From: Liolophura sinensis | Taxonomy: Eukaryota > Mollusca > Polyplacophora > Chitonida > Chitonidae | DNA length: 64,000 nucleotides | Assembly: GCF_032854445.1 (NCBI RefSeq) | Contig: NC_088295.1 | Coordinates: 78,894,028 to 78,958,027 of the forward strand | Direction of reading: 5' to 3' | Shown here: positions 25-12,868 of the stretch, piece by piece | Position numbering within the stretch: position 1 is the stretch's first letter | Layout: each line of letters opens with the position of its first letter | Translations under genes and position numbers: made by a program | Notes under the pieces: generated by a model | Databases searched by the model: none | Seen by the model: the letters and a program-made list of their open reading frames with translations, nothing else | What the model was told of the DNA's origin: nothing

Positions 25-3000
25 GTAAGAACAGTGGGGTGTGCTATATCTTTACGCATGTACAAGTTTATTTGCTATTTTTACATTTTGACCACTATGA
101 TGTGACAGCTGCATCTCACTTCAATAAATGAAATTTGTTGAATTTATTTAATGTTCATTGGCCACAGGTTTTTAAAGGAAGTGAACGTTTATGACCCACA
201 AAAGCAGAAGAAATGGCACTTTCCCGTGAATGGTATATTGAAGATATCTGGTGGAAAAAGGGAGCAGCGGTTTCTGATCGATGGTAATACAAGTGTGTAA
301 GTTCAGAAATAGCGGTAAGGGCTCTGGCCGGAATTGTTGATAAGCACAATGCTGACTGTGTCGTTAAGAACGATCCACTTAAGCCTCAGTCACATCAGAG
401 TTACGACTACCTTCGACCTTTGCGATTCGTCGCGATCCTTACATCGTGATCAATTGGAGCCAATTTACCCGGACTGAGGCTTAAGAAACTGATTGCAGTC
501 ACACCTGAACTGAAACTTCGACTCTTGCAGGACTTGTAGTCATGTGATTGCATGAGATCAAAGGCACTCTGTGACCAAAAATGGATGCGATTCATGAAGA
601 TCGTTTGTGACTCTCGTACGTAGCTCGTACGTAGCTCGTACGACAAAGCTCGACCGTTTAACATTGGTCGGAGTTATGTAGATCATAGCTGACCGCAGAC
701 AAAAAAAACACCAACAACCACTCTTACCGGTTTGCGATGTCGATATCTTCAGAATTTTCAAGATTTGTCGCTTTTTAACCGTACGATGAGTCCAAGATTT
801 ACGAAGATTGCCTGCAATTTTGTCTCACAATTTGTCTTAACTAGTCGTAAGTCTAGATGTGACTAGGGCTTTACTTTAAAGCCCCTTTACTATGAAATCA
901 GTGCATAAAGCTCCCTTTCTCATGTCAATTTATAGCCCCCCCCCCCCGTTAAGATTGTGAGGTATCTGGTTAGTCAACAACGGTTTCTTCTATCGAGAAG
1001 AATTATATATTCAGTTATAAAAATATTCTTGAATCGACCTGTAAACAACAATTAACACCATGAAACTAAAGGTCCTAATACATAATTACACAATGACAGA
1101 AGCCAGGTTTTTACCTGCTTATGAAAAGTGGATGGGAAAAAATACTTTATTTCGTTTAGTCTTGGAATGTTTACTGTTGAAAATAATTACACTGGGAGTT
1201 AAACTAAAATCTTATATACACATAGTTTACAGGGCTGATCTGACAAAGGAGAACAGGGTATTAAGTGAGTTTTTTTATATTGCATCAATACTGGCCTGAA
1301 GGTTGCCGTATAAAGCGACGGCCCACAGGCGAATACAGGAGCGCCATGCGAAAACGCTCGACTGTGTATGTTATGGTCCAAATATTGTCTGAATATTGCT
1401 ACATTTCTGCCATAAATGAATAACACGCCCCGGACTCGACATTCTGCTGTCAAAGACGCTTGTAGCACGCTATTCTCATCTTTGGGGTCATGCTACCCGG
1501 CATACATGTTCATCGTTGCTCTCTCTGACTCGGCCATTAAGACTTTCAACTTGGTGAATACGTACTTATTGTGACATATTTGAATGCCTTTGCAGGTCGC
1601 GCAATACTTTTGGAAATTTTCTGGAAAAAGTCATAAATCTTCACAGTCTCATGAGAATCTTCGGGAAACCATTGGAAGTGGGTTTAATGGTGTTACCTTT
1701 GAAAGTAGGTCTCCTGGCCACAACGGTATCGTTACTTTACCTGTCCAATCTTCTGGTCTACATAGCATGTCACATGCTCACCACGTCGGTATCATTGGTG
1801 AATCTATTGTGCTTTTCAGTCATTGGACATGTTATTGTGTGGACGATATCATGTGTATTCGAGATTTTGGTGCGAAATATTCGACCTAAATGGGCCTTTT
1901 CTGAGAAGAGGCAAGATCTTTCAAGCCTGGTAAGGTCCCTTTATCCCGATTGCAACTGTGATCAGTGTCAAAAGTCAGGCGTCATTCACATCCCTGAATG
2001 TCCACTGTGGACTGGAAATGTCGAAGACAAAAAACCAGTGTCTACCCTCCTGACGCAGATTGTTCAGCCCGAGGACTTTGTGTCTCCATCAGTTCTTCAA
2101 GTTGGCTATGTCAAATCTTTCCATAAGGATAGTGGAAAATCTCTTCATAGGTTGAGTAAAATACAGCATACAGATAGCAATTCATCCAACGTGTGCACTA
2201 ATCTGTTGAATTCTATCGTCGATCCGGACCGAGGAAAGCCTTATCTTGAACAGCTTATCGGAGAAATTGCTGACTGGGAAGAGCTTCTATCTCGATTTGG
2301 TACAAAGCAACCTCTTGATATTTTAGCTGACAGTGGTTTAGGCGAGAGAAAGGATGTCTCCCTCTACACGTCCGAGTTTATTGACGAGCTGGATTCACCA
2401 ACAGACCAGAGGAACATGGACAGTGATGTTCTACTTCTGAAGCAGGTGAACCAAAACATAGATGGCGCCTTCAGTAAGCTGTGTGAAGAAATTGAAGAGT
2501 TTGATAAAATGCTTTCGGGGCATGAAGTTAAAATACCTTCAAACTCCTCTCTGTTTCAAGTTGATCGAGAAAATGCAAAGATGTCAGAAATTAGAAAAAA
2601 AAAGGAAGACACGATCGGAACTAAGTTTAGAGAAACAGCTACAGTAATTACCACTCTGAAATCAGGAGCGTCGGATGATCTTTCAGTGTTGAAAACTATC
2701 ACAGACTTGCATAATCCCGAACCTTTACACTCTATAATGAGCGATATTCGAAAAGTTGACCAATTGCTCAAGCAAAGTAATGGCTTCCCAGATAATGATG
2801 AATGTAAGGATGCAGTGGAATCGACAGCAGGAGCTACCAATTTTATCCAGGAAGCTTATGAAAATACAGGAAAGACAAGATGTTCGTCGTCCACTTACCG
2901 TGGGAAGATAAAAGACAACGAAACGAAAAGAAAACCGCCGAAGAATATCTATGCAAGTACATCTAAGCACTCCATATCCAGGTACCTCCTTACACCTGAT

Positions 3001-6000
3001 TACCAGAATTTTCAAGACTTTCCCTCTCTTGAGGATTTTGAAAGAGCATTTTTATCTGAGGCTGATGTACATGTAATACAACAACCCACGAACGGAAAGA
3101 ACTTCGAACCCAAAGGTTTTAAAAGTCAAAGTAGTAAAACAACTGATGATGAAGTGAAGGTACAGGCTATTGGCGTTGGAAAAAAATATGGGAAACAACC
3201 TGAAAGCCAGGAGACAGTGGCATCAGAACCCGATGAAAATGACATAGAAGGTTTAGATGAGTTCACAGATGAATTAGTGGAACCTGACGCGAGCGTAGAC
3301 TCGCTCCTTGGAGGCACATCATCAGTATCAAAGTATAGGACTCGTCTTAACAATATACTGGACGGGAAAACCGAGGTTGGGAGAAATTGTAGGGAACAGA
3401 TGGACTGCAATGACATGCTAGAATCGGACGATGATATAACTGACCTGAAAGTTGCAGACAATTTTCTCATTAATAGGGCACTTGACACAAGTGCCTCCAA
3501 GTTCTCCATATCTGGGTACGTCCTTGCACCCGATTACCAGAATTTTCAAGACTTTTCCTCACAAGAATCCGAAGAGAATATCGAAAAGACTGATGCAAGA
3601 CAACAACCCACAAAGGGAAAAATCATCCGGTCAAAGGGCAATAAGGGTCAAAGTAGAAAAACAGATGGATATGAAATGGAAGTACAAGTTGTTGGTCTTG
3701 GGAGAAAATACAGAAAACAGGAGAAGAGTCAGGAGAAAAAAGAATCAAAACCAGATAAAAATAGCCTGGATATTACAGAAGATATCCTCATAGATGAGCC
3801 ACTGGAATCTGGCGTCAGCACCGACTCCCTTCTTGAAGGCACTACAACTGCCTCAAAGTATAGGACTCGTTTTCTCAAAATACTGGGTGAGGAAATTGTC
3901 AACGGAAAAGACATGAAGTCCCCGGATGGCCAAAAAATATATATATCTCAAGGTTTCACAAAGAGCAATATTTTAAGTGGAACAAAGGCAAAACAAAAGA
4001 AGAAAAAGAAAGTTTACGGGAAAAAGATGAAGTCGATATCTCCAAAATGTCAAAAACGGCAAATAACTCCAGATTCGGCAAGAACCAAGAATTACCAAAC
4101 TTACTCTAAAGGTACAAAATCAGGAGGACAGTCTGAGGATGAAACACTACACCAGCTAGGGCCTAAGGACAGCAGTGAAGAAGAATTAGATGGACTTGGC
4201 AAAGGGAAGAAAACACAAAGGTGTAAAATGGAGCAAGGAAAAAACAAAGTCGGAAACGAGGAATGGGAAGGAGGTAAAGGTCAGATGAAACATACTATAA
4301 AATCACAACTTTCCGATGACAATTTGAACAAAACGATCCACTTTCAAACTAACAAAGCCTTAGACTACCAGTGGAATGATAACATTCACGGCAACTCACG
4401 ACGGCAGAATAATAAAGATTACAACCCAGAACTGGGCGATATCTGTGAAGAACTTGAAGGGTTTCTGAAGCAAACACCCCCGAAACACAAAGAGGGTAAA
4501 GGGAGGGAATCAGGACAGAAAATGTATAAAGCAGATGACGATATAGATGATTCTAGATCGGGCATAACTAATGATACACTCTCATCAGATTTTGGCTACA
4601 AGAAGAACATTAAGAGAGACAAGGGCCCAGGTGAAGACTTTTCGGTTGATTTAGGGAAAAAACAAAAAACCGGCTTACAAACAATATGTGAAATGAAAGA
4701 ACCGCATGGTATGAACAGAGCGCATAGCAAGGCTACAGGTAGAAAGAGCATGGATGTGTCCAAGACAGTTAAATATGACAAGAGTTTTATCAGACGATCT
4801 ACCGAATACTTTCTGACAGACGAAGTCACAGATGATGTTGAAGATGATTTTCTAGGTGAAGGTCCTAGTAATCAGGCATGGGAAACAAACGATGATCTGC
4901 CGAATAATGAAGCAGTAACAGATTCGGCACAAAGGCTGAAGGGACTAAACAAACCGGCTAGTTTAAATTCTGATATTTATTCGGAGAGCAGTCTGCAGTT
5001 TGGTGGAGAATCATTAGGAAGGTTTAGGATTGGGGAAAGAGATAGTGGTACAGAGAGAAGCCCGTTATCCCATGGTGAGGATCAACACGCACTTCATAAA
5101 TCCGAGGAAGTAGAATCTTCAGACACATATAACGAATATCCACTTGTCAGTAGAAAATCGAACACAAGGTATTATCTTTACGAGGGTTGCACAAAGTTTG
5201 ACGAAAACATATACGACGAATTTGAGGCAACCTGTCAAAGGGAAGCCTCAAAGGCACTCAAGCAGTTCGGAGGAAGAAAAGTAATGAAGAGAGTTAGTGT
5301 AACTGAAGATAGGAAAATTCCGAAATTGCAAGATGGTCTCAGGAAAACTGGAAAAAGAGATCAGTTTAGTGAAACCGTTCCATCTGAAGAGGCAAAGATA
5401 ATGGATAGCAATGCAAGTGATGAAGACGACGATACGGAATATAGCTCTGATAAAGAGGAAAGAACATCTAGGAAAATAGAAACAAGACGATCGGACATAC
5501 TAAAAAACGTGTGTCGAACTGGTAAAAGGAGGTCAACATATTTACTTGTTGATGATTACACAGACATGGGAGAACTTTCGTTTGACGATTTTGATGAGAC
5601 ACATAAAAAGACAGAAATGCATGATTCTAACATATGTGAAGAGACCCCTATTCATAGCGTGTCAGATGCTTTTTCCGATGAAATTCCAGCAAAGAAACTT
5701 AAAGGTAGAGTGCGGAGGGTACAAAACACTGCACAAAGGAAATCAACATACATGCTTGTCACGGACAATGCCTCTGGAAAAAGGAAGAGAGATTGGAAAA
5801 ATAAGACAAGCATGAAAGCAACTGCTAAATCTAAGAAAGTAGACAAAGAAAGCAAAATGTATTTTAAAACGACTTGCCGTGATAATATTAGAGAAAATGA
5901 AAACTCCGCCACTTTATTGAAAGAGATAAGTGTGGCTGATGATCCAAGTTCTCGACTGAGCAAACTGAGTCAAGATATTGCAGAATTTGATAATGCTCTC

Positions 6001-9000
6001 CATCTAGCGGGGGCTAAGTCAAGCTTCGTGGTCCAGAGGCTGATATCAAGCACCAGTGATATGCAGACAAAAGTTTTAGGACTCAGTGATGAACGAAGTC
6101 AAAATGGGGTAATATCTTCAAGGTTTCAGTCAAAGGAAAGCACTGTTGAAAAGCCAGAGCCTTCTCCAGTTAATGATTTGACTAGATGTGATGTGGATGT
6201 TTTGATGTCAATAGTTAAGCGACAAAATGACGGAGAAACAATGAGTGCGATACTCCATGATATTCATGAGTTCGACACCGCACTCAAGCTTGCCGGCGCT
6301 GAAAACAGCCCCGTCATCAAAGACTTACTGTCAAGTGCTTCTTTTCATAGAACTGCTTCGGCAAACTTATCTGATCCGTTAAGTCCTTTCGCTGAGAAAT
6401 GCAAGGTGGACCAACAGGGTGTAGAAGCTCATAGAAGCGCAAATGCAGGCTCCAAAACAAAACACTTTTACCAAAAAAGTGAGGAATTGGGCGATTTATC
6501 TCCGAACGCTGACGAGGGATTAGGTGTTAACAAAACTGCTTCCAGGCCACATGACAAACAAAAAGTCCTTGATCTTATGAAGTTAATTGTGGAAGGAAAT
6601 AAAAACCCAGACTTGCTTCAAAATATTTTGAGAGACATCCAAGCTCTTGATGATTTACTGTCAAAATCAGGCGTCGCAGAAAGCTCTGTAATGCAGACGC
6701 TGATGAAGGACAGCGCATTGTATGACGATAAAGATTGGAGTGAAGCAGACGTCTCTGCCGCATATCTACTTGCATCCAAAAGTCCACGTTCTGCAAAAAG
6801 TAGCAAATCAATTAAATTAACCTCGCCTTTACCCGAAAGTAAACTTGCAGGAATTGAAAATACTGAAGATTGTAATTTAATAAGGGACATATTAGGCCCA
6901 AAAACGACTTCCGAATCGCTGGAGGGTATTCTTAAGGATATTCAAGACTTTGATATTATGCTGTATGAAAGAGGTTTCGGACGGATATCTCGTAAACAAA
7001 AAATATGCTATGCAGTAAGGGGTGATAAAGTCAACAAATTAAACACAGTATCCAAACCTGAAGAACAACTTGAAAATAAAACTGAAAGCCCTAAACTATC
7101 CACCTTCCAAGGCTCAAGTTTTTCTCCGGCAGGGGTGGAATCATTCAATAAGGGAGAGGAAGTAGGATCTGAGGACAACGGACATGCCGTGCGAATGTTA
7201 AAATCAATTATCACAGACCGAAGGAAAGGACCTTTTCAAGAAATTTTACGGGATATAATGGATTTTGACAGTAATCTCAGTAAATCTGACTTAGGAAGTA
7301 ACCCTTGTGTTCATAAGTTGCTTGATGTTGACAGGGTCGCAGTTTGGGAACAAGGTAAAGATAAAGATGATCTTATACGTCACTATTCCAGTCAGGAATG
7401 GAATGGCACAACTCCTAAAACATACCGTGAGCGTAAAGAGACTAAAGTGACAAAGAAAAAGAAAACTTCTACCCCAGTAAAGTTCTCAGCTACCAACACA
7501 TATTCAAAAGCTGGAAAAGGACAGAACCTGAAGGACTTCAAGAAAAGAACGAAAGAAGAGGGAAGCACGACCGATTATCCGGAGACTGGAAGTGATCATG
7601 GTAGTGAAATTTCTACCAGGTCAAGTAAAGTACAACCTACAGGAACTGAGGCCAGCACGGGTAGTGAATCATCTGTTTCTGGGTCTTATGATGTGACTGG
7701 CAAACGAGATTATCTGATGAAAAAGATATTACGTACACTACATGGTTTCCATATCCTAGTTTCTTCTCTAAATGACATAGACTATGATCAGTTGGACATG
7801 TTGATTGACCTTCTTAGAAAAGGAGAGAACAAGGTCAATACTGATCTTTCTACAGAAATTGTTGAAATATTGGACAGAACCCAAGAACATTCTGAAAACA
7901 GACGATCTTTCTTAAAAACCTTCGCTGGAGTAAGCGACCAAATTGCTATGGAGTCTTCAACACAAGAAATGTCGTCAGGGATTCTTAGTAAATCTACTTC
8001 ATCAGTGGAAACGACGGATAAGTCATGTGAAGCTGTGACGAGTCGTGATTACCTGAGCGATGATTCCCAACAAACAAGACCAAAACATACACGACAGCGA
8101 TCAGCACAGAAGCCGACTAACGTTAAAAGTCGATACGTCAAATCTCCTCAAAGGAAGGCGAGGCTTCAGTCTGTGCATAACGCTGGAAACAACATAAGCA
8201 ACGAGAACACGGATAACCAGTCACTTCAGGATAAGACAAGACACGCAGAGAAACTTACTGATTTGGATAATTTCCAGCTGAACGGTCAAGAATCAACTGA
8301 AACGTTGAAACCAGTCATTAACTCCAGTTTAGAAAACCAAAGACAACTGATCCGAGTTAGTTCGCAAGTCAATCTATCCGTGGCTTCTGTAGGCCCACAA
8401 GTCGATGGAAACGCTGTCGCTTCAACCAGTAATCATAAACCCCAAGTGTGTTATTGTATTATTGAAGTATTAGCCAAAGTGTTGGTTGAAAACACCATTG
8501 GCTTTGCTACGCAAGACTTGAACCATGAATTTGAATCAATAATCAGTGTTTTCCACAGATACCTGGTGATTGCATCTACCATGAGTTTGCTTAGGAAATG
8601 GCGAATCCCGGCTGATATAAACCTTCTTAATGAAGTTTTGCAAGAAGTGTTTTGGCATTTAGATTCTCAGGGGTTTGGGCGTATGAACCATCCAGATCTT
8701 TATCTTTCAAAAGCCTTACTTCTTCAGCGTATGTCACAAAAATCTAAACAGCGATATACACTGACTCTGTTTCCTAATAACCAAGCGGATGGGAATTCCA
8801 TACTTAAGCTTGAAGATATCATTCATTTTGAAAATAGCCTGGCCCGTGCTTTAAGAAAGAAAGCAAAAGAGTGTGTAAAGACTGGGTTAAAAGTGTGCTT
8901 GAAAAACATCGACAGTCACGTGGTATACAGTAAGTCCTTCCGAAAACCGAACTCTTACCTGATCTCAGTATTTCTCGTCTACATAGACTCATTGACAGAC

Positions 9001-12000
9001 AAGACCAAATCCTTTCCAATGGAAGTCTTCTCTGAGCTGTCTAAGAGTTGGACTCCCAGGAAGAAGCCTTTGTCACCAAATTTTGTGAACTCAAGTGATC
9101 GCTCAGTAGGTATCAGATGTCGGACACATCTAAGGTAGTGGTGTTTTGGTTTATTATACATTGATTTTGTGAAGGCAAGTTAATGCTTAAAAGTCTGGTG
9201 TTTTCTTATAGCTTTCATGTTTACAATATCTGAGTGTGTAGGAAAATGTTTCACGGCCATTTTTCCTAGAGTACGAATCGATTTGGCCGAGCTGTAGCAA
9301 CTTTTATGTTTCACATCGTCAGCAGGAGACAAGCTTTTCAGTGGGCGTCATACCCAGGAGTTCCGAGTGTAAGAACTATCCTTGCTTTCCTAACTATGCG
9401 CTCAGCATCAGGGAATAGGCCAAATGCCTATCTTATTTTTCTAGTCTGAAGCCTGTTTAGACCTACTGTTTTAGCCATCTATAACAAAAGGAAGCATGGT
9501 ACTCACAATATCCTGGACCATTTTTGTCATTTCACCGTTTGTCCATGTTCTACAGGTTTCAGGTCGAGATTCCAACTGGGCCAAAAGGACTGCTGGCAAA
9601 GGTATTAGACGTACCAATTAAATTAGTATATTTTCATAAGGGGAAATTATATATGTGGCCAGTAATATTAATGTATGAGTCTAACTAGGAATTGGAAATA
9701 CTCTGATTTGGCCCGCCTTAGGATAATTATAAGTCTATTTTAATTTGAAAATTCTCTTTATCTAGAACTGTTGGTAGGTTTAATATTCTTTCCCAGAGCG
9801 GTTGTATGTGAGTATGTGAGTGTGGATGGGGAGGGAGGGGGGTTGGGCGATTGTCGCTGGCTACCATCAGCACACCAAAGAAGTCACCTGCTCGAATTCA
9901 GCTCTCGCTGTTTCGACCCATTAACCTGACCGCCATCATGTATAAGAAAAATTCTGAAGCACGGTTTTAAGTAAGTAAGTAAATAAAAAATAAATAAATA
10001 AATGAATAAATAATTTTTCTGATATAAATGGAAAGTTCTTGCCTAAGGCTTTAAACAACGAGCAAATAAATTAATAAATAACGTGTCGTTGCCGGGTGGT
10101 TAAGACGCTTGTCTTTCACAGGCTAAGACAAACGGAATGCGGGTTCAGTCCTGTCCGTGGAGAATTTTTGTAGATTCCACAGCTGTTGCTGTTCGTGGTT
10201 CCTTGGTCCAGGACACTCTTTTCGTTTTCTTTCACCAGTATGGTGTGCATATCAACGCGACATCTCGGATAGTTCGTCAGTAACTTAGCAGAGGTCGATG
10301 ACTTACCCCGTCGCACACCGGTTTCCTCCATCTTATGATTGAACATATTTCGAGTGAAGCGTTAAACACCAATCAGGCAAACAACAACAACAACAACTAA
10401 TAAATAAATATTTGATTTACTTTTAGCACCAAGGCATGACATTTACACACTCACATGTTGTTGATAAAAAGCACCAATGCACAATTTCTCCTTGTCCGGT
10501 ATACGTCGCTCAGGCCTGACTAAACAGCGCAAAAGCAGGAGAAGATTTATTTATTTATTTATTTGATTAGTGTTTTATGCCGTTCTCAAGAATATTTCAC
10601 TTTGACACAATAACATCTTAACTTGTGTCACATCGGACCAATGTATTAAGATCAGTTCGTCTAATTCGTTTCCTTTTTTTTAGGCATGGCATCTAAGTCT
10701 GTGAAGGAAACGCCAGCAACTCAGACGACAAAAGTAGGCGATTCAAGTTCTTCCAAGCATGTGAAGTTTTCGCCAAACCTTTCAGTCGCACCATCCGTGC
10801 ATTCACATCCTACAGGTAGCAAAGAGATAGAGATGGGCAAAATAGCCATGGTGAGTGCGTCTCATGATTAAAACACTTCGATACCTTACTCTTTTGTGAG
10901 CAGTCATCCTAATATTCGGAAACAGACAGTCAGGATTTTGCCATCCTTTACTATGAATTTGTGTTTAGTGTTACCAGTATGGCCGGAGTTGTCTTTAGGA
11001 ATCTTGGGTTGTTAAAATATAACTTGTTAAATATTGCAGTCGTTTAATGAAACATCTTTTGTCAGACTGTGGTATGAGCCATAACCTGTGTGGTAAAGTC
11101 ATACTCATTCATTTGTATATATAAGCAACACAATTCCTAGATTTTAAACCAGTTACTTTAAAAAGTGTCAACGTTGTACTTTCTTACCATTTTTGATTTT
11201 ATATTTTATGATTGACAGGGAAAAGGAGATGGTGTGGATTCACTGACAACAGGTAATGTATTGGTTTTATTACTTGGTTTCGTACTTTGGGCCGTCGGTG
11301 GGACATTTGGTCCCCTTTCCGGTTTCTGTCACTTAAAAAACTGCTATCACCATGGTATATGTGAAATATTCTTCACCACGGCGTTAAAATCCAATGAAAT
11401 GAAAGATATTAACAAAGAGTATCTATCCATCATGCAGCCCCTCTTGTCCGTGTTTAAGAAACGCCACCATCATTAGACGTGTGTCTGCATCATTTCATTA
11501 ATTTATTATGTAACCGTGGTATCTGATAATATTTCAGATTTTAAAATGCCGAAAAAGCATGTGCTGCACAAACTTTACTATCATTCCATATGTTGTCTGT
11601 AATCTTGTCATAATGTAGCCATCATGTTATTTGGTTTCGTTGCAGATTTTAAACTGTTGAACAAGTATGTACTACACGTTATCCGAGATGAACAAAATCG
11701 CCAAGAACTAGAGGTCTCGAATTACTGCCTATCTAACAAGGACAAGCTGGACAATTTTTTGATTGAAAATATTCAAAGGGCTGTTGATTTCCAACAGTCC
11801 CAACGGAAGGAACCAACACTGTCTGGTCCTATTTTAGAGGGTCTGAAGTATGAAGTGTGCGGTTGCGGCGATCTAAGGCTTCCATGGTGGGTCTTCCAGT
11901 GTTTAGTCGTCTTTTTGAGCCTGATAGTTGCAGGCTCTCTGTCCTATACAGGTATTAAGGGTCAGGATCTCACTCCGAACCAATCGTCGGAGTGGATAGT

Positions 12001-12106
12001 CTGTGTACTTTTCGGCGTAGTCGCAGAAATGATCTTCTTCCAGCCTCTGAAAGTGATACTGTGGGAGACTTGCCTGGCGTGGATTAAATTACGAAGTCCT
12101 GCTTAG
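1..12106 (+). CDS. Polycystin-1 family gene, 3' part: PLAT end, TM2–TM5, giant TM3–TM4 loop
   Basis: Exons 1–24, 168–296, 1596–9109, 10684–10850, 11219–11252 and 11646–12106 join in matching phases (2,2,1,0,1) into 2,776 codons including the stop, with the 5' end outside the window. Donors read gtaaga, gtaagt, gtatca, gtgagt and gtaatg, and every acceptor ends in ag. Polycystin-1 proteins are membrane receptors with an extracellular GAIN/GPS region, TM1, a cytoplasmic PLAT domain and ten further TM helices, the last six forming a channel-like module with TRPP partners. Seen here are a PLAT end (WFL..V.VYD then KKW.F), the pre-TM2 stretch RIFGKP (family: VFSRP), TM2 ending LSNLLVY (family: LANAMFY), TM3 followed by RNIRPK, and TM4–TM5 with LPWW and QPLKV. 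The stop follows TM5 directly, so no channel module is encoded. An intact frame of this length argues against a pseudogene. Family assignment rests on motifs read by eye and the sequence is very divergent. Confidence 0.78.
168..296 (+). CDS. Exon: C-terminal part of PLAT domain and linker to TM2
   Basis: The acceptor is ggccacag and the donor a perfect gtaagt. The frame is open throughout (FLKEVNVYDPQKQKKWHF at its start) and matches the PLAT pattern of hydrophobic strand, D.Q and KW.F. In polycystin-1 proteins PLAT lies in the cytosol between TM1 and TM2 and is thought to bind lipid or partner proteins. The exon ends in phase 2, and base 1596 completes a Val codon, giving NTSVSRNTFGNFLEKV across the junction. 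That has the length and spacing of the usual PLAT-to-TM2 linker. An earlier gt at 284 would break the phase. Confidence 0.72.
297..1595 (+). other. Intron of the polycystin-like gene
   Basis: It runs from gtaagt to cctttgcag. It contains a poly-C run (about 937–949), a triple repeat of a gctcgtacgta-type word near 615–645 and no open frame that fits the gene. One exon-like segment (1233–1264, between ttacag and gtgagt) has the wrong exit phase for the 1596 exon and was not used. Confidence 0.6.
1596..9109 (+). CDS. Giant 7.5-kb exon: TM2, TM3 and most of a ~2,550-residue cytoplasmic loop
   Basis: The acceptor is cctttgcag. The frame is open from 1558, so the Met at 1651 is probably internal. 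Numbered from that Met: TM2 about 19–41, TM3 about 47–74, then RNIRPKW, then a Cys/His cluster (C101, C103, C106, H113, C117). The rest is highly charged, Ser/Lys/Asp/Glu-rich and probably largely disordered. It carries nine copies of a motif like I..DI..FD..L...G (near 185, 260, 347, 1424, 1517, 1639, 1744, 1849, 2020). A recurring (S/T)xYxLxxDY-type motif lies near 440, 618, 1049, 1170, 1293 and 1363. A duplicated block covers 440–595 and 618–775. Residues about 2270–2470 are less biased and look helical and folded. The chosen donor (9109|gtatca) leaves phase 1 and fits the next exon; reading on would stop at 9136. I recognise no family in the loop. Confidence 0.8.
9925..10018 (+). repeat. 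SINE 3' tail remnant (family A-like)
   Basis: A stretch like 'ccgccatcatgtataag … attctgaagcacggttttaa' followed by taag/aaat repeats resembles the end of the full-length SINE at 52.85 kb (ccgtcgtataagtgaaatattcttgagtacggcgtaaaac). It is diverged and lacks a recognisable tRNA head. Confidence 0.4.
10081..10410 (+). mobile_element. tRNA-derived SINE (family B), near full length
   Basis: The head looks like a tRNA of the Ser/Leu type: A box in 'ccgggtggttaagacgctt' and B box 'gggttcagtcc' about 55 bp later. A roughly 200-bp body follows, ending 'gaagcgttaaacaccaatca' and an (aac)n tail. Similar taataaata sequence on both sides may be a target-site duplication. The 3' end resembles that of family A, which suggests both used the same LINE machinery. 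Confidence 0.72.
10537..10612 (-). repeat. SINE family A 3' tail, reverse orientation
   Basis: (attt)n is followed by 'gattagtgttttatgccgt' and 'tctcaagaatatttcactt'. This is the reverse complement of the family A end (aagtgaaatattcttgag…gcgtaaaacacc). Only the last 60–70 bp are kept. Confidence 0.55.
10684..10850 (+). CDS. Exon: Ser/Thr-rich end of the polycystin-like loop
   Basis: A pyrimidine-rich acceptor (ccttttttttag) precedes bases gc, which complete the Gly codon begun at 9109. The frame MASKSVKETPATQTTKVG onward is open to donor gtgagt. It encodes 55 whole codons and ends in phase 0. The segment is hydrophilic and Ser/Thr/Lys-rich like the loop before it. Its ATG could be read as the start of a separate small gene. 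The exact phase fit to both neighbours makes an internal exon more likely. Confidence 0.65.
11219..11252 (+). CDS. 34-nt micro-exon of the polycystin-like gene
   Basis: The acceptor is ttatgattgacag and the donor acaacag|gtaatg. The exon reads GKGDGVDSLTT and leaves one base, which joins base 11646 to make Asp. If the donor is ignored, the frame runs to 11476 through a hydrophobic stretch (LVLLLGFVLWAVGG) and ends in HHH-stop. That product would resemble a short alternative C terminus with one membrane segment, so intron retention is possible. Confidence 0.55.
11508..11573 (+). repeat. Decayed tandem copy of the start of the terminal polycystin exon
   Basis: The 33 bases from 11538 match those from 11646 at about 25 positions (both begin attttaaa), and each follows an ag acceptor (atttcag, gttgcag). 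The preceding intron bases also resemble each other. Spacing is about 108 bp. If spliced in from 11537|11538 the frame would give a short peptide and then a stop, so this copy is either dead or acts as a poison acceptor. Confidence 0.5.
11646..12106 (+). CDS. Terminal exon: TM4 and TM5 of the polycystin-1-like protein, with stop
   Basis: The acceptor is ggtttcgttgcag. After a charged helical stretch comes LPWW (11879–11890), TM4 (about 11891–11960), a short extracellular turn, SSEW, and TM5 ending in QPLKVILWE (12041 onward). Polycystin-1 proteins share exactly this order: LPxW, TM4, a turn with a Trp, TM5, then (Q/E)PLKV.L.E. Here the frame ends ten codons later (KLRSPA-stop). In relatives the chain continues to TM6–TM11. 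A donor-like gtgaga lies at about 12115 but only after the stop. Either this is a channel-less polycystin or a later part has been lost. Confidence 0.75.
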
Positions 12107-12862: not shown

Positions 12863-12868
12863 AATAAA
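12863..12868 (+). promoter_or_regulatory. Candidate poly(A) signal for the polycystin-like gene
   Basis: A canonical aataaa lies 757 bases after the stop codon at 12104–12106. No nearer canonical hexamer was noticed on this strand. It is chosen by position only. Confidence 0.3.

Follow-up and report, generated by a model that had tools for sequence, protein, structure and literature searches.

A polycystin-1-derived gene with a giant predicted cytoplasmic loop in the chiton Liolophura sinensis

The gene and its exon chain

A stretch of 64,000 nucleotides from the chiton Liolophura sinensis (contig C1, NC_088295.1, positions 78894028-78958027), referred to here as the window, contains most of a putative polycystin-1-derived gene with a very long loop between its third and fourth transmembrane (TM) segments. 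The genome examined comprises 609 Mb in 632 contigs. Gene parts that lie 5' of the window are given as C1 contig positions, and all others as window positions. The gene model, for one gene in one species, was read from the genome sequence alone. It has nine coding exons with a total of 8,736 nucleotides, which encode 2,911 residues with a single stop at the end. The order of the parts is ATG, TM1, a PLAT domain, TM2-TM3, the giant TM3-TM4 loop, TM4-TM5, and stop.

All nine exons are on the forward strand. Upstream reading placed coding exon 1, which contains the ATG and TM1, at C1:78890896-78891024, exon 2 at C1:78891353-78891440, exon 3 at C1:78891870-78892016, and exon 4 at C1:78893760-78893826. 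Exon 5 (168-296) encodes the final part of the PLAT domain. Exon 6 (1596-9109) is 7,514 nucleotides long and encodes TM2-TM3 and nearly the whole loop. It lies in an open frame of 2,526 codons from stop to stop (1558-9138), is in phase with its neighbors, and is stop-free from TM2-TM3 to the donor at 9109. Its product begins with a hydrophobic pair that is followed by a highly charged stretch. The loop continues through exon 7 (10684-10850) and exon 8 (11219-11252, 34 nucleotides) into exon 9 (11646-12106), which then encodes TM4-TM5 and ends with a TAG stop at 12104-12106. A word match to AATAAA on the same strand (12863-12868), 757 nucleotides past the stop, is a possible poly(A) signal.

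The splice dinucleotides are intact (GT-AG) and in phase across the nine-exon chain. At the exon 1/2 border, which was picked among several candidate sites to hold the frame, the phase agreement is by construction. An initial annotation, made from the letters of the window, had proposed the junctions 296/1596, 9109/10684, 10850/11219, and 11252/11646, and each of these is GT-AG and in phase. The exons that it placed in the window hold, but the start of the gene lies 3.1 kb upstream of the window, so that TM1 and most of the PLAT domain are outside it, and the gene stops after TM5.

Transcripts could instead end in or shortly after the large exon. The product would then be TM1-PLAT-TM2-TM3 followed by a long tail that lies free in the cytoplasm, and exons 7-9 would be rare or part of another isoform. 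The large frame closes at 9138, 29 nucleotides past the donor, and the donor itself (GTATCA at 9109) is not a strong consensus. Seven AATAAA words are also present at 9982-10073. However, these words lie inside a simple repeat, and the AATAAA that follows the exon 9 stop also argues against an early end. Exons 7-9 lead in phase to a TM4-TM5 segment that matches paralogous genes above all 5,000 shuffles. Early termination is thus considered unlikely.

Polycystin-1 ancestry and the missing receptor and channel parts

The spliced N-terminal 300 residues contain a PLAT domain (Pfam PF01477, E 4.1e-11, 44.1 bits against a cut-off of 23) directly after TM1. Polycystin-1-like genes are also found elsewhere in the genome. 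Four were used as paralogues, A (C1:25.36 Mb), B (C8:50.5 Mb), C (C1:22.28 Mb), and D (C1:23.34 Mb), each with GPS, PLAT, and channel matches. The TM4-TM5 segment of the window gene (11873-12079, forward strand), which contains LPWW and QPLKV, scored 18.1 bits against a profile of paralogues A-D, and this score was reached by none of 5,000 block shuffles. With an earlier profile that left out B and was built from A, C, and D, the segment scored 17.6 bits, and the best of 4,000 shuffles scored 16.5 bits. When the window gene was joined with A, C, and D in one profile, human PC1 was matched at E 8e-6 and a single-helix peptide of a cytokine receptor at E 0.0042. The second match indicates that part of the TM4-TM5 signal is helix composition. 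Three of the four rows in the joint profile are paralogues, and the human PC1 match therefore mainly shows what the profile is. The window gene has the PLAT domain and TM4-TM5 in common with the four paralogues, and LRLPWW is also present in gene B.

The PLAT domain, the TM4-TM5 match, and the order of the parts support a polycystin-1 ancestry for this gene. The initial annotation had assigned it to the polycystin-1 family, and the assignment is supported by the PLAT domain after TM1 and by the match of TM4-TM5 to the paralogues. It had also fitted both flanks of the loop to the family. The fit is good for TM4-TM5 and only suggestive for TM2-TM3 (1657-1887, forward strand), a segment recognized by hydropathy. 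TM1 and TM2-TM3 are assigned mainly by position.

The model contains five TM segments. Lysine and arginine outnumber aspartate and glutamate by 4 to 0 after TM1 and by 5 to 2 after TM3, and the N-terminal tail has no lysine or arginine. According to this charge pattern, the tail should face the outside, and the PLAT domain and the loop should face the cytosol. Nearly all of the protein would thus be cytosolic, with a loop held to the membrane at both ends, unless two further, less pronounced hydrophobic peaks (residues 2470-2520) are membrane segments too.

The genome was searched for the PLAT, GPS, PKD_channel, and Polycystin_dom domains. Only the best candidates were scored, and the counts given here are matches listed. 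There were 16 for PKD_channel (PF08016) and 13 for Polycystin_dom (PF20519), and the nearest of each on the contig is at 25.4 Mb (gene at 78.9 Mb). GPS had 21 listed matches, the nearest on the contig being at 68.7 Mb. Seven GPS-domain matches occur at C7:1645216-1646007 with a spacing of exactly 115 nucleotides. As 115 is not divisible by three, neighbors fall in different frames. This array may be a minisatellite built of a GPS-like exon, or it may be another oddity. The PLAT search, which works exon by exon, listed 31 matches, and the PLAT domain of the window gene is not among them. Dense PLAT clusters were seen at C6:43635539-43676053 (15 matches) and C8:36822463-36887501 (5 matches). These are perhaps many-PLAT proteins or lipoxygenase-like genes.

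Twelve pieces of paralogues A, B, and D, GPS and channel pieces among them, served as queries against a 94-kb region that starts 30 kb upstream and runs to the end of the window. Nothing better than E 0.16 was obtained, and this region yielded no GPS, TOP domain, or channel. The four paralogue loci were searched with the same queries as a control. Other paralogues were found at E 1e-3 or better by the GPS and channel pieces, while A_tm6, D_tm6, D_tm5, and A_ext matched only their own locus and are uninformative. Exon 9 runs 16 codons past QPLKV and then reaches TAG. Because the stop is right after TM5, no channel is encoded in the gene model. The PKD_channel and TOP domain of the polycystin-2/TRPP type were not found in the window gene by the domain lists, Pfam, or the 94-kb comparison. 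It also does not have the GPS and seven TM segments of an adhesion G protein-coupled receptor, as no GPS was found and the model has five TM segments.

The locus could nevertheless hold a polycystin-1 receptor-channel of the conventional 11-TM type, with exons for the GPS and the channel that are farther off, too diverged to be detected, or missing from the assembly. TM1 and TM2-TM3 have diverged past sequence significance, and a channel could have done so too. In paralogues A, B, and D, the GPS is found together with TM1, but in paralogue C the matches are about 1.3 kb apart, and the GPS therefore need not share the exon of TM1. The 5' end of the gene speaks against this explanation. A good acceptor, TTTGTCTATTTACAG, would open an exon 52 nucleotides before the ATG, and these 52 nucleotides are closed in all three frames. 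An upstream coding exon spliced there could not read into TM1. Given the arrangement in paralogue C, this argument against an upstream GPS is strong and not absolute, and it leaves some room for a diverged GPS in a separate exon. The distances to the nearest listed GPS, Polycystin_dom, and PKD_channel matches, the result of the 94-kb comparison beside its control, and the TAG at the end of exon 9 also argue against a full receptor-channel. Such a gene appears very unlikely here. The initial annotation had described a membrane receptor, and this description is not upheld, since no GPS was found and the model has only about 16 residues before TM1.

GAIN/GPS, 11 TM segments, PLAT, and TOP are listed as features common to LOV-1 and PC1 in PMC9829181. 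From its sequence, the chiton gene appears to have one of these four features and to lack the other three. It is thus best described as polycystin-1-derived and not as a bona fide PKD1 receptor-channel.

The giant loop and its repeats

The TM3-TM4 loop has 2,561 residues with borders set by hand, close to the 2,550 or so that had been claimed, and the charge pattern fits the cytoplasmic side. The large exon is rich in serine, lysine, aspartate, leucine, and glutamate. FoldIndex was below zero in all ten blocks of 100 residues between 601 and 1600, where the chain is predicted to be disordered. A more hydrophobic and possibly folded end of exon 6 (8437-9105, forward strand) had no family match. 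An AlphaFold2 model of the last 232 residues of this exon was discarded at a predicted local distance difference test (pLDDT) score of 39.

Eight copies of a motif, approximately LLKSI, a turn, and ILxDIxxFDxxL, were identified in the loop, three at residues 385-583 and five at residues 1623-2098. In 2,000 shuffles, the motif occurred 0.01 times on average and at most once. Both the motif and the seed units had been picked with the sequence in view, which flatters the count, but not to this extent. All copies are on the forward strand. Repeats 5 (6187-6336), 6 (6559-6711), and 7 (6865-6981) were used as seeds for a profile. This profile found repeat 4 (5902-6051) at 16.9 bits, repeat 8 (7180-7329) at 16.3 bits, and repeat 3 (2674-2784) at 11.0 bits, and none of 500 shuffles reached 5 bits. 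Repeat 1 (2188-2301) scored 1.2 bits. Repeat 2 (2422-2526) was caught by the motif, and the profile sees just a 10-residue piece of it at -0.5 bits. A possible degenerate ninth repeat was noticed by eye from a 21-nucleotide repeat (4420-4473, forward strand, residues 1129-1146). An AlphaFold2 model of repeat 5 with an eight-row alignment has predicted helices at 2-12, 16-35, and 42-49 with a mean pLDDT of 82, which is a hint only, as the alignment is tiny.

No Pfam family was found at E 1 for the large exon or for the last exon as read, and a PDB sequence search of the large exon likewise gave none at E 1. The initial annotation had described a single 7.5-kb exon with no known domain. The length and the lack of a Pfam family agree with this, but the eight helical repeats had been overlooked. 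Several candidate matches were set aside. Two PDB matches of the last exon (E 0.12 and 0.59) were taken as chance. Two Pfam matches of single repeat units (E 0.16-0.17), one of which is to a protein family of plant viruses, are at chance level. The two-helix unit was also considered to resemble the docking domain of PKA RII, but no search supported this idea, and it was dropped. Among the short motifs, runs of four basic residues alone were raised, and their count was reached by 12 of 500 shuffles.

The loop appears to have grown partly by internal duplication. Self-comparison revealed a tandem pair at 2954-3393 and 3488-3918 (forward strand), in which about 440 nucleotides align at a spacing of about 530 nucleotides. 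The copies are 73-85% identical in their best parts. Over 142 aligned codons, the proportions of synonymous and nonsynonymous differences, pS and pN, are 0.48 and 0.29, and the ratio of the nonsynonymous to the synonymous rate (dN/dS) is 0.47. This ratio supports translation in frame and some constraint. A genome search also located 270 nucleotides of the exon (4974-5243, forward strand) at C1:78510657-78510926 on the reverse strand, about 388 kb off and 98% identical. The five differences, four of which change an amino acid and one of which is silent, and the sharp edges indicate a recent dispersed copy. Genome-wide, the loop matched nothing but itself and one 98-residue piece, and the last exon was found at its own place alone. 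The 10-kb piece with the dispersed copy (L004) also has a long tandem array on its reverse strand (7049-8354, reverse-complement count), with a KRHNQGVCTNDTYRRVRKW-like unit encoded in two frames.

These copies bear on whether the gene is a decaying, functionless duplicate of a polycystin-1 gene. The receptor and channel halves are missing, and a 270-nucleotide piece of the gene exists as a fragment elsewhere, as might be expected from decay. However, about 2,500 codons remain open in one exon, the splice dinucleotides are intact, and the internal duplicates retain a dN/dS of 0.47. Decay is therefore regarded as highly improbable.

Other features of the surroundings were also observed. Upstream and on the same strand, there are frames at approximately C1:78864566-78880507 (L003-L002) that we take by eye to encode a calcium-regulated mitochondrial carrier (aralar/citrin-like). 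Only the forward strand was viewed there. A T-rich element recurs in same-strand introns, at about 10545-10605 of the window and at about 8050-8120 and 9320-9390 of L001. It consists of runs of TTTA followed by a CAAGAATATTTCACTT-like stretch and, judged by eye, is likely a short interspersed repeat.

Proposed function and comparison with known systems

The gene is real and well formed, and it is odder than the initial annotation supposed in what is missing. Multivalent scaffolds are commonly built from like helical units on a flexible, charged chain. From the spacing of such units along the charged loop, we infer a polycystin-1-derived five-helix core with a giant loop that acts as a membrane-anchored cytoplasmic scaffold and clusters one partner. 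A probability of about 0.5 is assigned to this reading. The protein would have been cut down to a membrane core that consists of TM1, TM2-TM3, and TM4-TM5, with a short tail on the outside, the PLAT domain in the cytoplasm after TM1, and the stop after TM5. The TM3-TM4 loop would have been enlarged to about 2,560 residues as a charged chain that is probably disordered in large part and that bears eight copies of a two-helix element of about 40 residues. The core and the PLAT domain could hold the protein to a membrane, and both ends of the loop would be fixed at that membrane. The PLAT domain of polycystin-1 is described as binding phosphatidylserine, phosphatidylinositol 4-phosphate (PI4P), and beta-arrestin in PMC9672506. 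The repeated elements may serve as several like docking sites that cluster a partner, in whatever cell type expresses the gene. Roles in cilia and sperm are guesses by analogy with the family.

Several results weigh against this reading. When the N-terminal 300 residues were searched as a single sequence, only weak matches to PDB chains resulted, to a lipoxygenase PLAT domain at E 0.094 and to polycystin-1 at E 0.85. TM1 scored -4.9 bits against the paralogue profile, and 4,982 of 5,000 shuffles scored at least as well. For TM3 the score was 0.8 bits, and the summed pairwise score of TM2-TM3 to A-D was reached by 25 of 2,000 shuffles; both are suggestive only. The peaks at residues 2470-2520 could be extra membrane segments, which would change the topology. 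From residue 1601 on, FoldIndex is around zero with mixed sign, and disorder is thus not general. The best PDB sequence match of the repeat profile (E 0.16) is unrelated, and Foldseek with the unit model found nothing at E 10. PKA, CK2, LxxIxE, and PP1-type motifs in the loop are at the level of shuffles. The codon-usage score is uninformative, with -0.068 for the reading frame and -0.082 for one reverse frame.

The loop might also function as an elastic or spacer tether from the membrane to the axoneme or to another membrane, with its length mattering more than its repeats. Its length, its charge, and the predicted disorder at residues 601-1600 are consistent with a tether. However, in the model the loop starts and ends at one and the same membrane, which suits a loop-shaped scaffold better, and the repeats keep a common core motif. 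A tether thus seems quite unlikely. Both functions had been offered initially, and the repeat array would fit the scaffold better, although each is a conjecture about function.

In polycystin-1, the role of the TM1-TM5 and PLAT core is hard to separate from that of the receptor and channel halves. It is possible, though we hold it only tentatively, that the lone five-helix core is a membrane platform and a two-point anchor for a loop of about 2,560 residues with at least eight new helical docking elements, for which no described counterpart was found in the literature searched. If expressed, a natural gene that keeps the core alone would be a test case for the core's own role. It would also show that a polycystin-1 lineage can turn into a cytoplasmic scaffold after the loss of both sensing and ion conduction. 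The repeated helical element can be looked for in other molluscs. No report of a polycystin with such a giant TM3-TM4 loop was found in the literature searched, which was covered mostly by titles and abstract starts and with few subscription journals. By title and abstract start, the chiton polycystin literature contains nothing on such a gene.

The polycystin-1/PKD1 family includes human PC1, PKD1L1-3, and PKDREJ and LOV-1 of C. elegans. The chiton gene shares with it a PLAT domain directly after TM1 and a TM4-TM5 segment with LPxW and a QPLKV-type end. It differs in having 5 TM segments instead of 11 and in that the searches turned up neither a GPS nor a TOP domain nor a channel. Its TM3-TM4 loop is more than 10 times as long as that of human PC1, for which chain positions give an estimate of about 200 residues. 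Compared with paralogues A and D, whose loops have 101 and 70 residues, it is 25-37 times as long. In B and C the loop spans several exons, and all four paralogues, unlike the window gene, have GPS and channel matches.

Relatives without a channel have been described. In the excerpted text of PMC5318412, a zebrafish pkd1l3 remnant and the current human PKD1L2 are PKD1-like without a cation-channel domain, and the chiton gene resembles them in this respect. There, such genes are described as a remnant or as perhaps no longer a bona fide pkd gene, a channel-less gene not being counted as one, and loop expansion is not mentioned. The SpREJ proteins of the sea urchin, in the excerpt of PMC1934368, include polycystin-1 relatives with 0, 1, 2, or 6 TM segments and without a channel. 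These counts indicate that polycystin-1 relatives can lack the channel. The same excerpt does not mention a giant loop for SpREJ proteins. The reduced forms (SpREJ1, 2, 7-10) are like the chiton gene in being polycystin-1 relatives without a channel. According to this excerpt, they retain an extracellular REJ domain, which is complete, split, or partial, and all but SpREJ10 retain the GPS, whereas the chiton gene keeps the cytoplasmic side.

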